Below the pieces are notes generated by a model. The model made no database searches. It had not been told where the DNA came from and saw only the letters and a program-made list of their open reading frames with translations. Of a DNA stretch of 34,706 bases, positions 1,267 to 34,706 are shown piece by piece. The position numbers and the translations under genes are program-made. Positions within the stretch are counted from its first letter, which is position 1, and the number at the start of each line of letters is the position of its first letter. The stretch is from IMG/VR virus record IMGVR_UViG_3300032278_000054, positions 1 through 34,706 of that record. The stretch is one strand, 5' to 3'. This DNA comes from a virus.

Positions 1267-3726
1267 ATGGACATCAACCAAGACCGCTACGCGAAGACCG
1301 AGAGCCACTGGCCCATCTACGTGCGCAAGGAGCACCTTGACGAGGCGAGGGCCGGCGGCGGTTCGGTGCAGGTCTTCCCCGCTGGAGCGGCGACAGCTCT
1401 GGCCGAGGCGAGCGGGCGCAAGATGGGGCGCACGGTGGGCTACACCGGGGTGCCCTTGTCCGGTGGTGAGATTGACCTCGATGCGAATCCCTGCTTGAGC
1501 CCGACTGAGTGGCGCGGGAGCTACGACCAGATCGGAATCGTGGACCGCATGGTGAGGGAGGACCCGGTTGCCCAGGCGATTCGGATGGCGTGGACGCTGC
1601 CCCTGCTCTCGGTGCCGTGGACGGTCGAGGCTGCGAGCGACGACGAGAAGGACATTGAGATCGCAGACTTCGTCCGGGCCGCTCTGTTCGAGCACCTTCA
1701 AGGCGGCTTCGAGCGGTTCCTTGAGCAGGCCGTTCAGTTCACCTGGCGGGGCTGGTCGCTGTTCGAGATTGTGGCGCGCTACGACAAGACGCTTGAGCGG
1801 ACGGTCATCGACCGGCTTGCGCCTCGGCTGCCCTGGACGGTCTACGAGTGGCTTCGGTATTCCGGCAATCGCTGGGGCTGCCGCCAGTACGGCTACAGCG
1901 GCGACGGGCTGGTTGGCACCTCTGGGTCCTTCTCCTCGGTGATGCCTCTGCTGCCTCCCGAGAAGCTCCTGCACTTCACCTATCAGCCCGACGGCGACAA
2001 TCCAGAGCCGATGGGGATCCTTCGCCCGGCCTACGGAGCCTGGCGACAGCGGGCCACCTACCTCAAGCTGGAGGCCACCGGCTACGAACGCGCAGCCTAT
2101 GGGATCCCCTACGTGGAGGTGGACGTCAACGCCAGCCCTGGAGACGTGGAGCAAGTCAACGTCATCCTCAGAGAGCTGCGGGCGGGCATCCGAGCCTTTG
2201 CGATGTTCCCGAGGGGCTACACGCTGAAGTTCGCGGACTTCCCGATGAAGGGCGTCGACATCCGAGAGGCTCGCATTGCGGCCGGCCAGGACATGGCGCG
2301 CGCGGCCCTCTGTCAGTTCCTATTCACGGGCGAACAATCCGGCTCCTATTCACTCGTGCGCGGGCAGCTCGATCATTATTCCGCAGCCCTTCAACAGGCA
2401 GCCAACCGCATCGCGGCCACTCTGTCCCAGGGTAAGGACTCTCTGATCAAGCGTCTGGTCAACTGGAACTTTCAAGGCGTCCAGAAGTACCCCGTCCTCC
2501 AGGCCGGCGAGGTCCGAGTCGGAGACCCGAAGCAATTGGTTGAGGCAATCCGCACGGCCACCGACGGGGGGATCATCATCCCAGACAGCAACATCGAGGC
2601 GAAGGTGAGGATGGTCCTCGCACTCCCGGCGAAGGAGGAGCGGATGGCACCCGAGGGCGAGGTGAGCGTCGAAGCTCCACCAGAGCCCCCGAAGGGAAGC
2701 CCTGCCCCGAGCGGCGAGGACTCCGAGCGGGGAGACGCCCAGGTGGAGCAGGAAGAGGAAGAGGTGACAGCCCACGAGCACGGGCCGGGCTGCGGGCACG
2801 TCCATCTTCTGGCCGAGTTCCCGCCCGAGCGTCTCGACGGTGATCGAATCGTGATGGGTCCATTGGGCCGCGACGTCCGACCGCTTGAGACGGTGGTGCG
2901 CTACTCCGAGACCCGGGGCGGGACGACCGATCTCTCTCGCTCGCTGGGCGTGGTGATCAGCCAATGGCGGGACAGCATCGCGGACGAGTATGCCAAGGCG
3001 GTCTCCAAGGCTCCGACGCTCGCGGCTGCGATGGACGTGGAGGTGCCTGGCAAGGAAGAGCTTGCCGCCGCTCTGAGGTCCGCGCTCCAAGACGCCTATG
3101 ACCAGGGCAAGGGCTCGGTCGATGCAGAGCAGAAGCGACAGGAGGAAGACCCCGAGCTTCGCGACGCAATCGCCGAGGGCGACGTCGAGCGAACAGAGGA
3201 CGACATCGAGGTCACCTCAGACCAGCCCCGGCTCCCGTTCGCTCTCGCAGTCGAGAAGCCAGAGCTTGCGCCTGGAGTGGTGCCCACCCCCATCGACGCG
3301 GCAGACCCAGAGGAGGTCATCGAGTCAGTCGTGGCGACGACGGTGAAGACTTCGGCGCAGCGAATCGAGGACGCCACGATCACCGCCCTTCAGAACGCTG
3401 GAGTCGGCGGGACGATGCCCGAGGCGGCAGTGGCCTCGACGGTTGTCTCAGACGCCCTCAAGCTGCTCTCCCCTGGGAAGGATGAGGTGGCCGCAGCTCG
3501 GGACGTCAAGAGCATCTTTGGTCTGGGCCGAGTGCAGGAGCAACGAGCCCTGGGAACGCAGCGGTTCATGTATTCGAACCTCACCGAGTCGGAGACCTGC
3601 GAGCCTTGTGCGTCGCACGATGGGGAGACGTTCGGGCTCGATGAGCTGGCGACCTACGCCACTCCGGCGGCGTGGTGTTTGGGCTATAGCAACTGCAACT
3701 GCATTGTAATCGGCATCGCACCGTGA
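1267..3726 (+). CDS. Portal protein with C-terminal MuF-like head morphogenesis domain
   Basis: The 819-residue product follows terL and precedes the protease, the usual portal position. Residues up to about 450 resemble Mu gp29/DUF935-type portals, which form the dodecameric ring through which DNA enters the capsid. Residues about 502-513 hold a metal-ligand-like cluster, HEHGPGCGHVH, in an otherwise acidic linker. The last 120 residues resemble the MuF/SPP1 gp7 minor head family, with the pattern TCEPCASHDGETF and cysteines at about 778, 781, 804, 810 and 812. In many phages portal and MuF are separate genes, so this is a natural fusion. A weak AGGG lies before the ATG. The assignment rests on motifs and context. 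Confidence 0.85.
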   Translation: MDINQDRYAKTESHWPIYVRKEHLDEARAGGGSVQVFPAGAATALAEASGRKMGRTVGYTGVPLSGGEIDLDANPCLSPTEWRGSYDQIGIVDRMVREDPVAQAIRMAWTLPLLSVPWTVEAASDDEKDIEIADFVRAALFEHLQGGFERFLEQAVQFTWRGWSLFEIVARYDKTLERTVIDRLAPRLPWTVYEWLRYSGNRWGCRQYGYSGDGLVGTSGSFSSVMPLLPPEKLLHFTYQPDGDNPEPMGILRPAYGAWRQRATYLKLEATGYERAAYGIPYVEVDVNASPGDVEQVNVILRELRAGIRAFAMFPRGYTLKFADFPMKGVDIREARIAAGQDMARAALCQFLFTGEQSGSYSLVRGQLDHYSAALQQAANRIAATLSQGKDSLIKRLVNWNFQGVQKYPVLQAGEVRVGDPKQLVEAIRTATDGGIIIPDSNIEAKVRMVLALPAKEERMAPEGEVSVEAPPEPPKGSPAPSGEDSERGDAQVEQEEEEVTAHEHGPGCGHVHLLAEFPPERLDGDRIVMGPLGRDVRPLETVVRYSETRGGTTDLSRSLGVVISQWRDSIADEYAKAVSKAPTLAAAMDVEVPGKEELAAALRSALQDAYDQGKGSVDAEQKRQEEDPELRDAIAEGDVERTEDDIEVTSDQPRLPFALAVEKPELAPGVVPTPIDAADPEEVIESVVATTVKTSAQRIEDATITALQNAGVGGTMPEAAVASTVVSDALKLLSPGKDEVAAARDVKSIFGLGRVQEQRALGTQRFMYSNLTESETCEPCASHDGETFGLDELATYATPAAWCLGYSNCNCIVIGIAP

Positions 3727-9214: not shown

Positions 9215-10651
9215 ATGACCGGCCCCAAAGTTGACATCGGCAGAGACCTCGTCTGCTTCGCTAGCTCTCAGGCGTCTTTCACAATCACCGACGCGGCTGG
9301 CGAGAGCTATCCAGAGGCCGCAGACGCCAACCGGGTAATCACTGGCTCGGCCGGTGGAGCGATTGCCTACGTTCCTCGCGAGGACAAGTTCGGCACGGCT
9401 ACGGCAGTCCCCGGCGTCCAGCAGAAGCGGACAGCAGAGGGCTCCATCGAGGGCTATGTCCTGCCGTCTGGGACTCGTACGCTTGAGCCAGACATGCACG
9501 ATCTTCTGATCACCTCCGGGTGGACGCCCGTCGACCGGTCAGGCACGACGACCGACGTGGCCGGTGGAGCTTCGACAGCCCAGCGAGTCAACCTCACCGC
9601 CTCGGCTGGCTTTGCTATCGGTGACGCGGTGATCGTCGAAGACACCGTTGCCGGCGCTGGCCTCTACGAAATGCGGCGGATCCGAGGCGTGGACGTGGTG
9701 GGCACGAGCATCGACGTCGAGCCCCCCCTGAGCTTCGCTCCTGCCGCAGCCGCTAACGTCCGAGGAGCCATTGCCTACAAGCCCAACGACACGCGCGACA
9801 CGGCAGAGGACGCCCTCTGCCTCTGGCTTATGAACAACAACAGCGCGGACCGCTTGGGCGGTTGGACTCCAAGCAGCCTTGCCGTTACGGCCGGCGGTGA
9901 GGATGCCGCTCGCTTCGTGCTCTCGGGAACTGCTCGGAGGCATGATCGACTCTTTCAGACCAGCCTTGACGGGGCGATCCTGATCGGTGCCCTCACGATG
10001 GTGGTGGACGATGGGCTGGCATCGGCTGGCGATCTCCTCAACACCTACTGGCAGATCGAAGACGAGGTAGTCAAGGTAACCGGAATAAGCGGGACGACGT
10101 GGACCATTACCCGAAACCAGCTCGGCACCGCCGCGGCTGGTCACGGCGACGGGGAGGCCGTGTATCCCTACCGGCCCGCCGGGACTTACGCCGGTTCCCC
10201 GGTGCCGAGCACCTCGGGCCAGGCAATGTTCGCGACCTACGCCAGCGCGACCGGCGTGGCCCTTCAGGTCAATCAGGCCTCGCTTGACTGCGGGATGGGC
10301 GTGACGGCGAGGGAGGATGTCCACGGGGACGCGTACAAGATGGCCGGATATGTCCTGGCGCAGCGGGAGATCCGAGCCACCCTCTCGGGCTGGACGCTCA
10401 AGGCAGAGAACATGAAAGCCGCGATGAAGGCTTGGCAGACCACCGACATTGCCGGGGCCAGTTCGCAGCAGATCAGCGTCGCCGTCGTCTCTGGTCGGAG
10501 CGAGGGCAACATGTTCGGCTGGGTCGCCCCTCGCGTCCGAGCCGAGGACCTGAGCCTCGACCGCGGGTCTGACGAGGTGACCTTGGACCTCACCGGACTG
10601 TGTGAAGGAACGAGCGCGGGAGCGGATGAGCTGATCTTGATGTTCGGTTAG
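9215..10651 (+). CDS. Major tail (tube) protein
   Basis: The 478-residue product follows the terminator and precedes the chaperone pair and tape measure, the canonical tube-gene slot. It is a Gly/Thr/Ala-rich beta protein throughout, with a C-terminal part ending in an immunoglobulin-like pattern (DEVTLDLTGLCEG). It is longer than lambda gpV (about 246 residues). The extra length probably reflects an inserted domain in the middle (DDGLASAGDLLNTYWQIE to about residue 320). AGGAGG lies 10-11 nt before the ATG. The tube call is by context. Confidence 0.72.
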   Translation: MTGPKVDIGRDLVCFASSQASFTITDAAGESYPEAADANRVITGSAGGAIAYVPREDKFGTATAVPGVQQKRTAEGSIEGYVLPSGTRTLEPDMHDLLITSGWTPVDRSGTTTDVAGGASTAQRVNLTASAGFAIGDAVIVEDTVAGAGLYEMRRIRGVDVVGTSIDVEPPLSFAPAAAANVRGAIAYKPNDTRDTAEDALCLWLMNNNSADRLGGWTPSSLAVTAGGEDAARFVLSGTARRHDRLFQTSLDGAILIGALTMVVDDGLASAGDLLNTYWQIEDEVVKVTGISGTTWTITRNQLGTAAAGHGDGEAVYPYRPAGTYAGSPVPSTSGQAMFATYASATGVALQVNQASLDCGMGVTAREDVHGDAYKMAGYVLAQREIRATLSGWTLKAENMKAAMKAWQTTDIAGASSQQISVAVVSGRSEGNMFGWVAPRVRAEDLSLDRGSDEVTLDLTGLCEGTSAGADELILMFG

Positions 10652-21753: not shown

Positions 21754-21963
21754 TCACTCCTCCTCGCAGAATGTTCCGCAGTCGCAGCAGAGAGAGCACT
21801 GGGAACACCCCTCGCAGACGCTCTGACCGTGCTCGTCCTCGCTCTCGACCATCCCGCAGCGGCAGCAGGTATGTCGGTCGAGCGGGCTCGCCGGGCCGAT
21901 CCGACCCGCAGCAAGCGAAGCCTCCGGAGCAGCGATGATGCTAGAAGCAAATTGAGTGTCCAT
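21754..21963 (-). CDS. Small cysteine-rich protein
   Basis: The start at 21963 follows the shared AAGGAGAACGAGAC leader. The 69-residue product ends in a dense cysteine set (HTCCRCG, then VCEGCSQCSLCCDCGTFCEEE-type spacing), enough for two zinc-binding sites. It has no other recognisable domain. Small proteins of this kind are frequent in the leftward block and may act as DNA/RNA-binding accessory or host-takeover factors. The metal binding is inferred. Confidence 0.6.
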   Translation of the reverse strand: MDTQFASSIIAAPEASLAAGRIGPASPLDRHTCCRCGMVESEDEHGQSVCEGCSQCSLCCDCGTFCEEE

Positions 21964-21978
21964 CGTCTCGTTCTCCTT

Positions 21979-21998
21979 GCCGGCTTTGCCCCGCCGGC
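21979..21998 (-). promoter_or_regulatory. Leader hairpin GCCGGC-loop-GCCGGC (copy 1)
   Basis: On the minus strand GCCGGC, GGGGCAAA, GCCGGC precedes AAGGAGAACGAGAC. The stretch from 21963 to about 22012 is nearly identical to 24612-24661, another leftward gene's leader, so this is a duplicated leader of about 50 nt. Confidence 0.6.
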
Positions 21999-22016
21999 TA
22001 GGGATGGGTGGGAGGA

Positions 22017-22469
22017 TTATGGGCGGTAGCACTCAGCCTGCCTCCGATAGGCGTCGGTTCCCCGGTAGTAGTCAGCGTCCTGTCCAACCCGGGCGTACCG
22101 GGCGGCGTCGGTCCTAGCGTCTCGGCGGATCCGCGCGGGATCGCAATGGCGATCAAGCTGGCGAGCACTCAGGCACTCGAAGCGAGACCATCCGAGCACG
22201 GAGAAGGCAGCAGCAGACCAAGCATCCCGAGCCAGAGAGTCTTTACGGTCCTCGCAGAGGTCCCGCCCGCTATCGCGGGCGGCAAGAGCGAAGGCCACGT
22301 AAGCGGTCGAGCAGCGATACCGGATCTGCTGCACGTCATCCGAGGTCACGCGGGTGCGGAGTCGAGCCTCATCGGCCCTCGCCTGTCGAGCCCTCTCAGC
22401 GCGGATCGCTCTCATCTCGCGGTAGAGATCCTCATCGCTCATAGTGGCTGCGGGGGCGTCCGTGATCAT
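22017..22469 (-). CDS. Hypothetical early protein
   Basis: Translation starts at ATG 22469 behind AAGGAGAACGAGACG. The 150-residue product is helical and rich in Arg and Ala (REMRAIRAERARQARADEAR; LRTRVTSDDVQQIRYR). A long amphipathic helix followed by a compact region (AWSAAAFSVLGWSRFECLSA) is visible. It has its own leftward promoter at 22513-22541 and leader hairpin. No known domain was recognised. Confidence 0.6.
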   Translation of the reverse strand: MITDAPAATMSDEDLYREMRAIRAERARQARADEARLRTRVTSDDVQQIRYRCSTAYVAFALAARDSGRDLCEDRKDSLARDAWSAAAFSVLGWSRFECLSARQLDRHCDPARIRRDARTDAARYARVGQDADYYRGTDAYRRQAECYRP

Positions 22470-22485
22470 CGTCTCGTTCTCCTTC

Positions 22486-22504
22486 GGGCCGCTCCGTGCT
22501 GCCC
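22486..22504 (-). promoter_or_regulatory. Leader hairpin with ACGGA loop (22469 gene)
   Basis: The minus-strand stem GGGC/GCCC plus an inner GC/GC separated by a one-base mismatch closes a loop of ACGGA, immediately 5' of GAAGGAG. The same architecture with different stem bases occurs at 24981-24999 and 27262-27276. Confidence 0.55.
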
Positions 22505-22512
22505 ATGAAGAA

Positions 22513-22541
22513 AGAGTATTCCTGTTAATCATGGAAGTCTA
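22513..22541 (-). promoter_or_regulatory. Leftward promoter P4
   Basis: On the minus strand TAGACT (-35, 22541-22536) is separated by exactly 17 nt from TACTCT (-10, 22518-22513). Upstream lies GAAATACGATTTC, a near-palindrome also found upstream of P3. The AT-rich patch stands out from the GC-rich surroundings. Confidence 0.55.
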
Positions 22542-22568
22542 GAGAAATCGTATTTCCCTGAAAAGAAA

Positions 22569-24382: not shown

Positions 24383-24612
24383 CGCTCGTTCTCCTCGACT
24401 CGTTCTCCTCGACTCGCTGATCGCTCATCGCGACGACAGTCGTCGAGGTACTTTGACGCACACTCGACGCTGCAAAACTCCTCGGCCTCGGGGCAGACCC
24501 ACTCCTCGGCCTCCTCGTCCCAGTTGGGCTTGCCGCAGACGCAGACCTCGGCGCAGCCCTCGTCGGGAGGGCCACTGCAACCTGCGGGGTAACTCCATCC
24601 AAAGATACTCAT
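24379..24612 (-). CDS. Small cysteine-rich protein
   Basis: Start 24612 has the AAGGAGAACGAGAC leader with a GCCGGC hairpin (copy 2). The 77-residue product carries CVCGKPNWDEE and FCSVECASKYLDDC, four to six Cys spaced for a zinc site, and a charged C-terminal tail ending VEENER. That tail is translated from the ribosome-binding site of the next gene. The CDS overlaps the annealing-protein start by 4 nt. Confidence 0.6.
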   Translation of the reverse strand: MSIFGWSYPAGCSGPPDEGCAEVCVCGKPNWDEEAEEWVCPEAEEFCSVECASKYLDDCRRDERSASRGERVEENER

Positions 24613-24627
24613 AGTCTCGTTCTCCTT

Positions 24628-24647
24628 GCCGGCTTTGCCCCGCCGGC
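24628..24647 (-). promoter_or_regulatory. Leader hairpin GCCGGC-loop-GCCGGC (copy 2)
   Basis: Identical stem and TTTGCCCC loop (plus-strand spelling) to 21979-21998, with the surrounding 50 nt almost unchanged. It directly precedes AAGGAGAACGAGAC and the start at 24612. Confidence 0.6.
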
Positions 24648-24661
24648 TGGGGATGGGTGGG

Positions 24662-24964
24662 CTAGTAGCTGGTCTCGCCGTAGGACTTCGGGCCGATTGC
24701 CCAGGCGTAGTGATCGTCGCAGGAGAGGTCTTGGCCCGCCTGGTCGAGCAGCTCAAGGGCTGCGTCCTCTGCGCTCATGTTTCGGCAGTTGCGCTCGGCC
24801 CACCCGTCCGCAAGGTACTCGGCGGCGCGGGCCTTCTCTCGGTCGCTTCCGTCTTCAGCCTGATCGATTTCCCTCGCGATTGCCTCGCGAGTCATCCTGG
24901 CCCACGTCCTCTGGATGTTTGCGGGGACTGGAGGGAAGGCAGTGTCGGCGGCCTTGATAGTCAT
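24662..24964 (-). CDS. Hypothetical early protein
   Basis: Start 24964 uses the shared leader. The 100-residue product is helical and acidic (REAIAREIDQAEDGSDREKA, AEDAALELLDQAGQDLSCDD) and ends GPKSYGETSY. It is the first gene after promoter P3, so it is expressed with the SSB/annealing genes. No domain was recognised. Confidence 0.55.
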   Translation of the reverse strand: MTIKAADTAFPPVPANIQRTWARMTREAIAREIDQAEDGSDREKARAAEYLADGWAERNCRNMSAEDAALELLDQAGQDLSCDDHYAWAIGPKSYGETSY

Positions 24965-24980
24965 CGTCTCGTTCTCCTTC

Positions 24981-24999
24981 GGGGCTCTCCGTGAACCCC
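24981..24999 (-). promoter_or_regulatory. Leader hairpin with ACGGA loop (24964 gene)
   Basis: On the minus strand GGGG, one mismatch, TC, loop ACGGA, GA, one mismatch, CCCC (GGGG/CCCC outer stem). Compared with 22486-22504 the stem bases changed together but the loop and the one-base internal mismatch remain. Confidence 0.55.
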
Positions 25000-25011
25000 T
25001 CAACTGCTGAA

Positions 25012-25040
25012 ATTGTATATCCGACAAAGCGGGAAGTCTA
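25012..25040 (-). promoter_or_regulatory. Leftward promoter P3
   Basis: TAGACT (25040-25035) and TACAAT (25017-25012, five of six consensus) on the minus strand are separated by 17 nt. CAGTTGAGG begins 5 nt after the -10. GAAATACGATTT lies upstream. It probably drives the 24964-22569 gene block. Confidence 0.65.
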
Positions 25041-27034: not shown

Positions 27035-27245
27035 AGGGACGCCCGGGCATCCGGCCGAAGGAATCGTAGAAGGCATCTTGGACGTCGATCATCCGGTTGA
27101 CGGCCGCGCGGTAGTCGTCGTGGCGCCCCCGTCCGAGAGCGCTGTCGGCGTCCCGGTTCAGGCGGGCGAGAATGTCGAGCACTCGTTGCTCGGCCTTGGT
27201 CATCGACTCCGCGGGGCAGGCGCCAAGGGTCTTGTTGTTGGTCAT
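27021..27245 (-). CDS. Small protein A, first gene of the ACG-coupled series
   Basis: Start ATG 27245 has the GAAGGAGAACGAGACG leader. The 74-residue product (KAEQRVLDILARLNRDAD, DDYRAAVNRMIDVQDAFYDS) is helical and ends RPSEGA. It is transcribed from P5. The last codons GAG GGG GCC TGA form part of the repeated junction element. No family was recognised. Confidence 0.65.
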   Translation of the reverse strand: MTNNKTLGACPAESMTKAEQRVLDILARLNRDADSALGRGRHDDYRAAVNRMIDVQDAFYDSFGRMPGRPSEGA

Positions 27246-27261
27246 CGTCTCGTTCTCCTTC

Positions 27262-27276
27262 GGCGCTCCGTGCGCC
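27262..27276 (-). promoter_or_regulatory. Leader hairpin with ACGGA loop (27245 gene)
   Basis: On the minus strand GGCGC, loop ACGGA, GCGCC forms a perfect 5-bp stem immediately before GAAGGAG. It is the third leader with this loop. Confidence 0.6.
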
Positions 27277-27288
27277 TCAACTGTCCTA

Positions 27289-27317
27289 ATCGTATATCGG
27301 TTGATTGGCGCTGTAAA
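27289..27317 (-). promoter_or_regulatory. Leftward promoter P5
   Basis: TTTACA (27317-27312) and TACGAT (27294-27289) on the minus strand are 17 nt apart. CAGTTGAGG starts 5 nt after the -10. The surrounding gap (27246-27360) is AT-rich. Confidence 0.6.
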
Positions 27318-28841: not shown

Positions 28842-29759
28842 TCAGAATGTAGCCCCTAGGCTCCGGGCTACGGCCAGTGCTTCGTCCTCCAGGGATGCCG
28901 GCGAGCTGCCGCCCCGCTCCTGAGCCCTGGACCACCAGTTGCCCAGGAAGCGCCTCACCTGCTTCTTCTTCCGGGTCGGATTCGACTGCTCCCAGGCCCG
29001 AGCCTTCCGAGCCTCTCCCAGCAGGTCGACATCCGGGTAGGCCTCGGCGCTCGACTCCAGCCAGCCCTCGAAGCTCTCGGGGTTCCCGGTCAGCTTCGGC
29101 CATGTGCTCCGGACGAACTCCTCCAGGGCCCCAGTAGAACCTAGAGAACCTAGAGAACCTAGAGAACCTAGAGAACGATCTATACCCTCTCCCCCTATAG
29201 TCCCCCTCTCCCTAGCAAGAGAACTACTAGAACCAATATCTATGTCAGGTGAGTAGGTACGAAGTACCTGCTCACAAGACCTCTCGCTAGAGAGGTCCTC
29301 TCCGGAGTCCGGAGTCCGGATAGGGGCGACCATTGGTTGACCTTTGGTCGTCCTTTGGTCGACCTTTGGTAAACCTTTGGTTGTCCTTTGGTCGACCAAG
29401 GGTTGTCCTTTGGTTGTCCTTTGGTCGTCCAAGGGGGGCTGAGGGCAGCTCGAAGCGGTCTCGTTTCGATGCGGTTTCTGGTGCTTCAGGAAGTTCGGCA
29501 GCGCTCCGAATCGTCTGCCGTTCACTTCGTAGAGCACCAGCACCTCAGCCCCCACCAGCTCGGCTCCGAGCGCCTGGACATCCAGGCCAGGCTCGTGAGG
29601 GAAGGCCTCGCCGAGGACACGGGCAGGGAGCCACCGGAGTCGGCCTTCCCGGTCGGCCTGAGTCCAGAGCGACAGGAAGAGCAACCGGGCGTGAGGTGAG
29701 CAGGCAGCGAGGTCCTCGTGCAAGAAGACCTCGGGGTTCAAGAGTCGGGTCCTTGCCAC
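28842..29759 (-). CDS. Replication initiator with embedded origin
   Basis: The start GTG 29759 lies one nt after the HTH gene stop, behind GAGGGG. The 305-residue protein has an N-terminal winged-helix-type region (TRLLNPEVFLHEDLAACSPH, LLFLSLWTQADREGRLRWLP, then FLKHQKPHRNE), as in phage replisome organisers related to lambda O or DnaD-like proteins. The middle is low-complexity and repetitive: 11-residue repeats (DQRTTKGQPLV style) are the protein translation of the DNA iterons, and SLG repeats come from the 9-bp tandem. The C-terminus (EEFVRSTWPKLTGNPESF, RRFLGNWWSRAQ) probably contacts the helicase or its loader. An initiator whose gene holds its own origin is the lambda O arrangement. 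Confidence 0.78.
   Translation of the reverse strand: MARTRLLNPEVFLHEDLAACSPHARLLFLSLWTQADREGRLRWLPARVLGEAFPHEPGLDVQALGAELVGAEVLVLYEVNGRRFGALPNFLKHQKPHRNETASSCPQPPLDDQRTTKGQPLVDQRTTKGLPKVDQRTTKGQPMVAPIRTPDSGEDLSSERSCEQVLRTYSPDIDIGSSSSLARERGTIGGEGIDRSLGSLGSLGSLGSTGALEEFVRSTWPKLTGNPESFEGWLESSAEAYPDVDLLGEARKARAWEQSNPTRKKKQVRRFLGNWWSRAQERGGSSPASLEDEALAVARSLGATF
29141..29176. repeat. Tandem repeat 4 x CTAGAGAAC
   Basis: Four perfect 9-bp units plus a partial unit upstream. In the initiator they encode repeated Ser-Leu-Gly on the minus strand. Confidence 0.9.
29249..29275. repeat. Inverted repeat in the origin region
   Basis: GTGAGTAGGTAC (29249-29260) and GTACCTGCTCAC (29264-29275) pair with one mismatch around a GAA loop. 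A second perfect inverted repeat follows at 29278-29297. Confidence 0.8.
29330..29436. repeat. Iteron array: ten 11-bp units, core CCTTTGGT
   Basis: Cores start at 29330, 29341, 29352, 29363, 29374, 29385, 29396, 29407, 29418 and 29429, exactly 11 bp apart. Seven match CCTTTGGT perfectly; 29330 (CCATTGGT), 29396 (CCAAGGGT) and 29429 (CCAAGGGG) are degenerate. The 3-bp spacers vary. The spacing approximates one helical turn, so initiator molecules could bind along one face of the DNA. Confidence 0.85.
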
Positions 29760-32234: not shown

Positions 32235-32630
32235 ATGGCCGGGAAGCAGCCGAAGGCAGAGGAGGTCGTCCGCCGGATGGCGGTGGTCCAGAAGACCATC
32301 GGGGACCGGGGCTGGTCGCTCATGGTCCAGCGGGCTCTGGCTGCCGAGTTCGGCGTGTCGATGCAGACGATCAGCAACTACCGCAAGCGGCTCATCGACG
32401 GGATGAAGATCGAGCTGGACGAGCGGACCCGGGAGGAGAAGCAGGCCGAGTTCCTCGAACGGCTCCAGGGGCACCAGAGGGCTGCTCTCGCGGCAGGCAG
32501 GCTCGGGCCTCTAGCGGCGATGATGAATCTGGAGTCGAAGATCGTAGGCGTCGAAGCTCCGGTGAGCGCAGACCTGGGCGGCTCGGTCGAGGTGCTGCTG
32601 ACGGTGCCGAAGAGCAAGGGGAAGGGGTAG
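32235..32630 (+). CDS. Probable terminase small subunit
   Basis: The start ATG 32235 has AGGAG 7 nt upstream; a TTG six nt before it was rejected. The 131-residue product has an HTH-like region (VQRALAAEFGVSMQTISNYR, KRLIDGMK), a charged coiled helix (DERTREEKQAEFLERLQGH) and a C-terminal helix and strand (SADLGGSVEVLLTVP). This DNA-binding plus coiled-coil layout is that of TerS proteins, and the large terminase lies about 1 kb further downstream. TerL is separated by the cassette region, which may be a later insertion. The call is by structure and position. Confidence 0.6.
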   Translation: MAGKQPKAEEVVRRMAVVQKTIGDRGWSLMVQRALAAEFGVSMQTISNYRKRLIDGMKIELDERTREEKQAEFLERLQGHQRAALAAGRLGPLAAMMNLESKIVGVEAPVSADLGGSVEVLLTVPKSKGKG

Positions 32631-32657
32631 AACGACAAAGGCCCCCTTGCGGGGGCC
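32631..32657 (-). terminator. Leftward terminator 1
   Basis: GGCCCCC, loop, GGGGGCC (32640-32657) is followed on the minus strand by TTTGTCGTT. It terminates the leftward transcript of the 32960 gene. The identical sequence at 33241-33267 serves the next cassette. Confidence 0.7.
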
Positions 32658-32675
32658 GATGCGGTGCCGTGCGGC

Positions 32676-32960
32676 TCAAGATCGCTGCCCTGCGATCATA
32701 GCTCCCCAGGCTGCCTCGTTGCGAGTGCTGCCCGTGGCCGTTCCTTCGATGCCCCGACGACGAGCCCTAGCTTCCCAGGTTCGCGGGCCGACCCGGCGGA
32801 CGCGAAGGCCACACTTTCCTCGTCCACAAGCGGAAACCCATTGCCCCAAGTAATCCCACCCAGGGAGGTGCGACTTGCTCCACCAGCTCTCGCCGTCTCG
32901 GGTAAAGGTGGCGACGGTGTCGAAGTGCGGTGCTTTGATTGTTTCGGTGTCGATGGTCAT
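32676..32960 (-). CDS. Hypothetical moron-type protein
   Basis: Start ATG 32960 is preceded by GGAAGAACGAGACC, a variant of the shared leader. The 94-residue product is basic with many Trp and Gly residues: ESWWSKSHLPGWDYLGQW, CGRGKCGLRVRRVGPRTWEA. It has its own promoter (P2) and terminator, so it is a separate unit inserted between the two terminase genes. Its compact beta-rich character and location suggest an accessory or anti-host function; no family was recognised. Confidence 0.6.
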   Translation of the reverse strand: MTIDTETIKAPHFDTVATFTRDGESWWSKSHLPGWDYLGQWVSACGRGKCGLRVRRVGPRTWEARARRRGIEGTATGSTRNEAAWGAMIAGQRS

Positions 32961-32975
32961 GGTCTCGTTCTTCCT

Positions 32976-32989
32976 GGGCTTAATTGCCC
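32976..32989 (-). promoter_or_regulatory. Leader hairpin with AATTAA loop
   Basis: On the minus strand GGGC, AATTAA, GCCC lies right before AGGAAGAACGAGACC. The counterpart in the 33543 leader has GGC, AATGAA, GCC. Confidence 0.5.
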
Positions 32990-33003
32990 CTCAACTGATA
33001 AAA

Positions 33004-33032
33004 ATTGTATATCTGGTAACCAGGGATGTCTA
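33004..33032 (-). promoter_or_regulatory. Leftward promoter P2
   Basis: TAGACA (33032-33027) and TACAAT (33009-33004, five of six consensus) are 17 nt apart on the minus strand. CAGTTGAGG follows after 6 nt (32997-32989). Confidence 0.65.
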
Positions 33033-33039
33033 GACAATA

Positions 33040-33240
33040 ATGAGAAATACCGAAAAGAAATCAGAATCCACCCAGCGGGCCTGTGTTGCCTGCGATGCCG
33101 TCTACCTGGGCGAGCTGTCCTGTCCAGAGTGCGGAGAGCCTGGAGAGCCTATCTGTGGCTCCTGTGGCGGCTCTGAGTTGCGGTACGAGGCGACGACCGA
33201 CGAGGTGGACTGCGTGGGCTGCGGAGAGGCGCAGGAGTAG
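33040..33240 (+). CDS. Small zinc-ribbon protein
   Basis: The 66-residue product has four CxxC pairs (CVAC, CPECGE, CGSCGG, CVGCGEA), the sign of a double zinc ribbon, on the rightward strand. It lies between the two leftward cassettes and abuts the terminator repeat at its stop. There is no clear ribosome binding site before the ATG, only AGGG about 15 nt upstream, so initiation may be weak or leaderless. The cysteine spacing is strong evidence for a real protein. Confidence 0.6.
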   Translation: MRNTEKKSESTQRACVACDAVYLGELSCPECGEPGEPICGSCGGSELRYEATTDEVDCVGCGEAQE

Positions 33241-33267
33241 AACGACAAAGGCCCCCTTGCGGGGGCC
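33241..33267 (-). terminator. Leftward terminator 2
   Basis: Same hairpin as at 32640-32657; 31 bp (33238-33268 and 32628-32658) are identical, including the TAG stop codons of the flanking rightward genes. The minus-strand T-tract is TTTGTCGTT. Confidence 0.7.
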
Positions 33268-33288
33268 GAGGTCTGGGGTGGTGGGCGG

Positions 33289-33543
33289 TTAGAAGGTAAG
33301 GCTCGTCAGGGCGTAGATGGCCTCTTGGCTAAACTGTCCGTCTTCGGCCAGGTTTTTGGCCGAAATCCAGACCTCATCGACGCTCTCTTCGTTGCCATCA
33401 TAGTCTGTCTCGCTACAGGCACTGAGCAGATCGTTGTCTGCTATCAGTCGCACAGCCGGAGGAAGCTCCCCCTGATAGGCCATAGCTTTGATGCACAGGT
33501 CTGCTATCTGTTGGGGGGTAATGTTGTCGGCGTGGTCGCTCAT
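33289..33543 (-). CDS. Acidic moron-type protein
   Basis: The start ATG 33543 follows TAAGGAGAACGAGACG. The 84-residue product has 16 acidic and only about three basic residues by hand count (motif NDLLSACSETDYDGNEESVD). It has its own promoter (P1) and terminator, right next to the large terminase. Small acidic proteins in such cassettes can be DNA mimics or anti-defence proteins; that role is only a suggestion here. Confidence 0.6.
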   Translation of the reverse strand: MSDHADNITPQQIADLCIKAMAYQGELPPAVRLIADNDLLSACSETDYDGNEESVDEVWISAKNLAEDGQFSQEAIYALTSLTF

Positions 33544-33559
33544 CGTCTCGTTCTCCTTA

Positions 33560-33571
33560 GGCTTCATTGCC
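33560..33571 (-). promoter_or_regulatory. Leader hairpin with AATGAA loop
   Basis: A 3-bp stem (GGC/GCC) with loop AATGAA lies just before TAAGGAG on the minus strand. It is the weakest of the leader hairpins. Confidence 0.35.
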
Positions 33572-33585
33572 CCTCAACTGTCCTT

Positions 33586-33614
33586 ATAGTATATCCGCTT
33601 AATGGGGATGTCTA
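33586..33614 (-). promoter_or_regulatory. Leftward promoter P1
   Basis: TAGACA (33614-33609) and TACTAT (33591-33586) are 17 nt apart on the minus strand; CAGTTGAGG (33580-33572) follows 5 nt after. The -35 touches the inverted repeat 33614-33647. Confidence 0.6.
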
Positions 33615-33647
33615 GAGGGAAATACAAAAAAGATTAGATTTCCCTCT
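33614..33647. repeat. Inverted repeat ahead of the large terminase
   Basis: AGAGGGAAAT (33614-33623) and ATTTCCCTCT (33638-33647) form a perfect 10-bp inverted repeat around 14 nt. It abuts the -35 of P1 and lies 14 bases before the terL start, so it could be an operator for both directions or an RNA hairpin in front of terL. Confidence 0.7.
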
Positions 33648-33661
33648 GCTAGGCTGAAGCG

Positions 33662-34706
33662 ATGCGACGCCTGGAGGTTCCCTACGTCCCCTTCGGGGCT
33701 CAGATCACAGCCCACGAAGCGCCCGAGGACATCGTTCTCTTTGCTGGCGGCTGGGGCTCGGGGAAGACGTGGTGGCTGGTGGCCGAGGCCCTGCGGAACA
33801 CGGTCCAGAATCCGGGCCGAGCTGGCGTCCTCGTGTCGCCCACGTTCCCGCTTCAGCGTCGCACGCTCTATCGAGCCATCGTGGACCTCTTCCCCGAGGC
33901 GACCCGGTGGCCCTCGGGCGGGGCGAACGCCTCGAAGTGTCTCGGGCCTCTGGTCAAGGACTGGTCGGCCCAGGACCGATGTCTTACCCTCTGGAATGGG
34001 GCCGAGTGGTTCTTCGCCAGCGCCGAGGACCCGGGCAGCCTGGAGGGTGCGACCTACGCCTGGGCCTGCCTGGACGAACCGAGGCTGATCCGCCACGAGG
34101 CCTGGCGAATCCTCAACGCCAGAGTCAGAGACCCGAAGAGCGCCCAGCTCCGACGCTCGATTGCCGGGGTGCCCTCGATGGGCTGGATGCACGAGGAGTT
34201 CGGCAGACCGCTACCAGGCCGGCGACTGGTCCGAGCCTCGACCACCGACAACCCTCACCTTCCGGCGGGCTACGTCAACCACCTCAACCTCTCCGACCGG
34301 ATGGCCAGGGCCTTCATCCACGGTGAGTTCGTGGTGTTGGAGGGGGCGGTCTACTGGACCTACGAGACCGAGAGCATCGTGGACGTGAGGCCAGAGCCGG
34401 GCAGGCCGACCTACGGGTTCCTCGACTTCGGTGGCCGTCGTCCGTTCTTCGGCCTGGTGCAGGATGTCGACGGCCTCGGGGAGGTGGTGGTCGAGGAGGT
34501 CGTCTGCGCCGACGTGCTGGAGAGCCGACACGCCAGGGACTGCGCCGAGTTCGTGAGCAAGCTCGGGCTCGTGATGCTCGACTGCTACTGCGACCCGGCA
34601 GGCGGGGCCAGGAACGCCCAGACCGGGCTCTCTAGCCTGAGCGTCTACCGGGATGCCTTCCTCGCTGCTGGGGTCCTGTCCGGTCGGATGGCCTCGCCCT
34701 CTGGGC
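33662..34706 (+). CDS. terL: Terminase large subunit, N-terminal part, runs off the window
   Basis: The start ATG 33662 opens MRRLEVPYVPFGAQ, followed by FAGGWGSGKTWW (about residues 28-39), a Walker A motif, and later YAWACLDEP (Walker B, residues about 131-139). The frame is open to base 34706 (348 codons) and continues in the copy at position 1, where it reaches TAG at 1235. Only a weak ribosome site (AGG) precedes the start. The protein translocates DNA into the prohead using ATP and cuts the concatemer. Confidence 0.95.
   Translation, partial: MRRLEVPYVPFGAQITAHEAPEDIVLFAGGWGSGKTWWLVAEALRNTVQNPGRAGVLVSPTFPLQRRTLYRAIVDLFPEATRWPSGGANASKCLGPLVKDWSAQDRCLTLWNGAEWFFASAEDPGSLEGATYAWACLDEPRLIRHEAWRILNARVRDPKSAQLRRSIAGVPSMGWMHEEFGRPLPGRRLVRASTTDNPHLPAGYVNHLNLSDRMARAFIHGEFVVLEGAVYWTYETESIVDVRPEPGRPTYGFLDFGGRRPFFGLVQDVDGLGEVVVEEVVCADVLESRHARDCAEFVSKLGLVMLDCYCDPAGGARNAQTGLSSLSVYRDAFLAAGVLSGRMASPSG
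33831..34706. repeat. Right copy of the terminal overlap
   Basis: Matches 1-876 as described there; 34580-34706 is identical to 750-876. The offset between the copies is 33,830 bp, the probable genome length. Confidence 0.9.

Follow-up and report, generated by a model that had tools for sequence, protein, structure and literature searches.

Probable exchange of accessory-gene cassettes through common regulatory ends at the terminase junction of a phage

The stretch of DNA analysed here (the window), a viral record of 34,706 bases, comes from an uncultivated phage, probably marine. The ~34 kb record carries a Mu-type portal (PF06074) and a phrog_2 terminase; its structural genes run rightward, and a leftward gene block at ~22-30 kb includes a Gp157-type protein and a replication-initiator-like protein. 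The ends of the record overlap, positions 1-876 repeating 33831-34706 at 94% identity; given this level the record probably joins two TerL alleles, and strain variation within the sample is likely. At the right end the gene order is MTase, RusA, TerS, a gap of 1,031 bp and TerL. The small terminase subunit TerS (32235-32630, plus strand), at the left border of the insertion, is 47-68% identical to the gene that precedes TerL in relatives and has weak HTH matches, while the large subunit TerL (33662-34706, plus strand) forms the right border and continues over the record end because the record ends overlap.

The gap is made of two leftward units, each laid out as terminator, gene, leader and promoter, with a rightward gene between them; the preliminary description, made from the letters alone, had given this layout and its coordinates correctly. 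On the minus strand, terminator T1 (32629-32659) is followed by gene A (32676-32960), coding for a basic protein of 94 amino acids with six tryptophans, by its leader (32961-32997), with CAGTTGAGG, the hairpin GGGC-AATTAA-GCCC (32976-32989) and the Shine-Dalgarno-like AGGAAGAACGAGACC, and by its promoter (33004-33032), TAGACA-17-TACAAT, with the AT-rich upstream element TTTTCGGTATTTCT. The second unit, on the same strand, consists of terminator T2 (33239-33269), gene B (33289-33543; 84 amino acids), a leader (33544-33580) with CAGTTGAGG, the hairpin GGGC-AATGAA-GCCT (33559-33572) and AAGGAGAACGAGACG, and a promoter (33586-33614), TAGACA-17-TACTAT, with the upstream element TTTTTTGTATTTCC. Between the units, the plus-strand gene Zr (33040-33240) encodes the double zinc ribbon recognized earlier, of 66 amino acids with four CxxC pairs. 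The two leftward proteins are unrelated to each other, as had been noticed; B is strongly acidic, with 16 Asp/Glu against 3 Lys/Arg when read from the start at 33543, after its Shine-Dalgarno. A longer reading frame for B, starting at 33567 inside the leader hairpin, was rejected: its ATG is absent from the other leaders, and the position of the Shine-Dalgarno favours 33543 as the start.

The terminators had been described as identical over 31 bp. The identity is exact and the true stretch, GTAGAACGACAAAGGCCCCCTTGCGGGGGCCGA, is 33 bp long, since T1 and T2 are each preceded by GT (32627-32628 and 33237-33238); it includes the TAG stop of TerS in one copy and that of Zr in the other. In each copy a GCAA loop caps a 7-bp G+C stem; for leftward transcripts TTTGTCGTT, a weak U-tract, comes after it, and the predicted stability is about -20.6 kcal/mol. 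The element (AGAACGACAAAGGCCCC...) occurs twice, exactly, in the window, and for its 27-nt pattern no occurrence is expected in shuffles. In other contigs T1 is conserved in L051, L067 and L069: the module AGAACGACAAA(A/G)GCCCC plus hairpin was found at nine places on four contigs (two in the window, one in L051, three in L067 and three in L069), and the copy at L069 3217 matches that of the window through the whole hairpin. The loops vary (GCAA, TTCG and others) and the stem and TTTGTCGTT tail are kept. Two cassettes stand head to tail in L069, and both there and in L080, which lies on the same contig as L067, the T stem is followed ~40-50 nt on by the −35 of the next cassette, giving a composite terminator-promoter junction; in the window itself Zr separates T2 from the promoter of A. 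When the L069 junction (3105-3262, minus strand) was compared with phage records, only short partial matches were obtained, in Streptomyces and Bacillus phages. Those in Streptomyces phages, including Coruscant and Tomas, match the terminator part at about 89-93% and probably reflect a common terminator hairpin.

The other end of the units is likewise not confined to this pair. Its core consists of a TANNAT −10, ~5 nt, CAGTTGAGG, a short hairpin, a Shine-Dalgarno of the GGAG type and the start codon. Further copies on the minus strand of the window precede a 74-amino-acid reading frame (copy at 27243-27317, gene at 27245; hairpin GGCGC-ACGGA-GCGCC) and one of 100 amino acids (copy at 24962-25040, gene at 24964; hairpin GGGGTTC-ACGGA-GAGCCCC), and a degraded copy (22467-22543), which has lost CAGTTGAGG and kept the ACGGA loop and the Shine-Dalgarno, precedes one of 150 amino acids (22469). 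The leftward genes at 27245 and 24964, and those in L052, have the promoter-leader without T; the full cassette is thus not universal, and within this genome the terminators are the part special to units A and B. Pattern scans located the module in L006, L008, L009 (two copies), L011, L026, L042 (two) and L043 (four), L042 and L043 sharing genes with the window. In the alignment of 16 copies from eight contigs CAGTTGAGG is nearly invariant, and pairwise comparison of 17 downstream proteins (59-150 amino acids) gave no mutual similarity at E < 0.1. The promoters and leaders of A and B are the near copies that had been reported, their pieces being 77-81% alike; given a module found before so many unrelated genes, this likeness means membership of a regulon and not a recent duplication of the pair, and by itself it is no evidence that one unit was copied from the other.

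In L026, a 148-kb record, the single copy (locus L054, about 9854-9934) lies before a 139-amino-acid gene, and the 20-kb stretch around it shares nothing with the window; over ~32 bases it matches one of the window leaders, lacking a single G and differing in the last base. This copy may stem from transfer or from a host in common. A looser promoter-leader pattern gave only chance-like hits in viral contigs. A host-derived leader was considered and rejected, for CAGTTGAGGN{1,2}CAATNAAGCC had eight hits among 84,980 bacterial and archaeal species, none with a correctly spaced −10.

Across the copies the leader stem measures 3-7 bp. In the 5-bp class, with six distinct sequences, 100% of the cells are paired against 33-60% when the partner is slid; one pair is doubly changed (C-G to G-C) and one is changed to G-U. 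The covariation amounts to one doubly changed pair in six sequences, its score being reached by 33 of 500 shuffles. Single leaders are often not significant alone by shuffling, and neither is the sub-group L006/L008/L009/L011, where the stem has only 3 bp. Taken together these data are suggestive, not strong, of a hairpin conserved by pairing. It lies near the predicted start of the transcript, immediately ahead of the Shine-Dalgarno, as would suit a hairpin that stabilizes the 5′ end or insulates it, a role in keeping with what is generally known of bacterial mRNAs.

The comparison of related phages supports the earlier view that these units were inserted between normally adjacent genes. Among relatives collected at 68-76% TerL identity, TerS and TerL abut or overlap in 14 of the 16 records that show both genes (L003, L006-L014 and L084-L087). 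As adjacency is usual, the 1,031 bp of the window are a gained insertion. A DNA search with the whole gap against phage records returned no match. In G+C content B alone stands out (54.5%, against 62.8% for A, 63.5% for the genome and 68.0% for TerL). In L004 the TerS-TerL gap holds one rightward gene; it appears by eye to encode a putative DNA methyltransferase (606-1087), runs in the direction of the terminases and has neither leader nor T.

The gap of L080, the closest sister by its TerS (68%, the highest identity), measures 1,426 bp and reads TerS, Zr homologue, T, X1, leader/promoter, T, X2, X3, leader/promoter, TerL. Its Zr homologue is 60% identical to Zr (E 2e-28), whereas X1 to X3 are unrelated to A and B, X3 weakly resembling a cargo protein of L069 (E about 6e-5). 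L051 shows the order TerS, two small zinc ribbons, T, cargo, leader/promoter, TerL, and one of its zinc ribbons is 60% identical to Zr over one ribbon. Compared pairwise, its terminases have no detectable similarity to those of the window (E 0.28 for TerL and 0.24 for TerS), although the TerL of both matches phrog_2; TerS of L051 was assigned by position, HTH-like appearance and weak PHROG matches. Against Pfam, Zr itself gives only sub-threshold zinc-ribbon matches. Because its homologues occupy the same gap in L080 and L051, Zr is tied to the TerS-TerL site more firmly than the leftward cargo. The preliminary description had held that the same genes at the same place in distant relatives would speak against inserted accessory genes; this is what L051 presents for Zr, and nothing of the kind was found for A or B. 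The cassettes of the window, L080 and L051 are oriented opposite to the terminases; those of L069 lie away from the terminases and run with the late genes, and cassette orientation is therefore not fixed.

The sequences themselves establish that parts are shared, that the gap is an insertion, that the sister has other cargo at the same site and that relatives have head-to-tail cassettes with composite junctions. To account for these findings we propose, as the probable explanation, that the TerS-TerL gap is a conserved insertion site for standardized accessory-gene cassettes whose cargo is exchanged through common ends. In the model, a cassette has a promoter of the sigma-70 type, with an AT-rich element upstream of it, and a leader that starts near CAGTTGAGG and carries a hairpin of 3-7 bp immediately ahead of the ribosome-binding site; the small cargo genes, one or two in number, come next, and the conserved terminator closes the unit. 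Transcription of the cassettes by host RNA polymerase would be early and separate from that of the rightward terminase genes; the hairpin would stabilize the 5′ end or insulate the ribosome-binding site from the cargo sequence, and T would keep leftward transcripts from continuing antisense through TerS or Zr. Cargo would be swapped, added or deleted by homologous recombination at the common ends. Recombination between T1 and T2, which are identical over 33 bp and lie 610 bp apart, would, for instance, remove A and Zr and leave the TerS stop codon intact. The suggestion that the repeats mediate exchange stands in so far as the sister keeps the ends and differs in cargo, the outcome to be expected of repeats that drive exchange or keep a record of it; no event was caught, that is, no pair of genomes was found identical outside and different inside a cassette. 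A wider form of this model, in which any small gene can be plugged into a two-ended cassette and expressed at a number of sites, among them the TerS-TerL gap, where Zr is kept across terminase types, is a tentative possibility with the odds somewhat against it; it would represent an exchange like that of the PeSLs discussed below in another lineage and would make the gap a hot spot for host-interaction genes.

Selection on regulation alone could also account for the conserved ends. In that case A, B and the remaining genes would be ordinary resident early genes, which share their ends through common regulation with no part in exchange and differ in cargo by old illegitimate recombination and divergence. 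This reading, which we regard as somewhat unlikely, agrees with the use of the promoter-leader across the main leftward region and with the upstream element TTTTTCGGATTTCT, whose exact copies, in either orientation like a protein-binding site, lie above the −35 of eight promoters, A and B having weaker forms. The spacer of 17 nt that separates −35 from −10 (for example window 33592-33608) is 54% alike within a phage against 31% between phages (...GGATA in the window, GGGGTATCC in L067/L069), a pattern expected of a phage-specific operator; the same similarity could arise by copying within the genome, and it favours neither regulation alone nor cassettes. Against regulation alone, T keeps sequence beyond the needs of termination (AGAACGACAAA), identical in another phage, and even the closest sister has unrelated cargo at this site.

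As to what the cassettes carry, the comparison of A and B with PADLOC, Pfam, NCBIfam, PHROGs and PDB gave no hit beyond chance, and no homologues were found in IMG/VR with 8-residue seeds or in INPHARED by tblastn. The single-sequence model of A (mean pLDDT 57.6) has an alpha-beta-beta-beta-alpha C-terminal half, an order that suits a double-stranded RNA-binding domain (dsRBD), and an N-terminal third of very low confidence; its top fold matches are mostly dsRBD, none significant (best E 0.027), with the anti-CBASS protein Acb4 also among them (E about 0.3). For B, whose structure prediction had been suggested earlier, the model is all-helical at low confidence and the fold search returned no match. 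Small size, orphan status and turnover lead us to guess that the most likely role of the cargo is in host-phage conflict or takeover. An anti-defence function of A and B is possible, and it would add a function to the cassettes without competing with them. That they act specifically in this way, by anti-restriction, anti-CRISPR or similar activity, is in our judgement unlikely: small, single-gene units of fast turnover with their own promoter would suit such a role, as would the dsRBD-like and Acb4 matches of A, but those matches are not significant and come from a single-sequence model, and none of PADLOC, Pfam, NCBIfam or PHROGs yields a family. Very improbable is a packaging-linked element, in which leftward transcripts or Zr would tune terminase expression or DNA packaging with the cargo secondary, for although Zr accompanies even the dissimilar terminases of L051 and the cassettes of the window, L080 and L051 oppose the terminases, 14 relatives package without Zr or gap and cassettes also occur away from the terminases, with the late genes, in L069.

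Among known systems, the promoter early stem-loops (PeSLs) of T4-like myoviruses (Arbiol et al. 2010; Comeau et al. 2014; both as cited in PMC4503421) are the closest in design to the proposed cassettes, a likeness that we draw from their description there. As described, repeated promoter and stem-loop/terminator boundaries surround small variable genes, for which modular shuffling was proposed (PMC4503421), and the title of the 2014 paper speaks of composite conserved promoter-terminator motifs; in L069 and L080, likewise, the terminator leads into the next promoter and a composite boundary lies between small genes. The present phage is, however, not a T4-like myovirus, as its size, portal and terminase indicate, and in its cassettes, which lie between TerS and TerL, the 5′ leader adds a second hairpin. 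The SAS/ESAS of cluster K mycobacteriophages resemble them in that many genes, unrelated to one another and mostly non-structural, share a conserved sequence at their start codons, some copies having an upstream inverted repeat (PMC3203893). They differ in that their consensus is the 13-bp GGGATAGGAGCCC with 17-bp inverted repeats (PMC3203893), against CAGTTGAGG and a 3-7 bp hairpin at a sigma-70-type promoter here, with a conserved terminator in some units; no GGGATAGGAGCCC stands directly before the start codons in the aligned module copies. The promoter-plus-inverted-repeat motifs of the haloarchaeal virus HGTV-1 are a parallel of the archaeal TATA-box type, and the passage describing them has no terminator module (PMC3950731). 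None of these three is the family into which the present cassettes fall.

The comparison with the morons of lambdoid and other temperate phages, genes with their own promoter and terminator between genes that are adjacent in relatives, is closer to what had been suggested at the outset. Both features occur here, the insertion by comparison of the gaps and the promoter and terminator of each unit as predictions. The present insertion differs in comprising two units plus Zr, in having ends common to many units across the genome and across phages, and in that no tyrosine integrase was found in the window record or in any of six records checked. Phage genes that are small and act on the host easily escape detection, because they lack relatives. 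Scanning for leader plus terminator could list the accessory genes of a whole phage group without protein similarity, and gene swapping via common regulatory ends becomes testable beyond the T4-like phages.

Two other repeats were observed in the window. An 11-bp tandem repeat (29313-29441) within the replication-initiator-like gene translates to DQRTTKGQP-type repeats and has a similar counterpart in L007, a relative. A 52-nt repeat (21961-22012 and 24610-24661, 96% identical), without CAGTTGAGG and without an obvious promoter, combines a stronger hairpin (GCCGGC...GCCGGC) with the AAGGAGAACGAGAC start region shared with the promoter-leader module and constitutes a second leader type in the leftward block.
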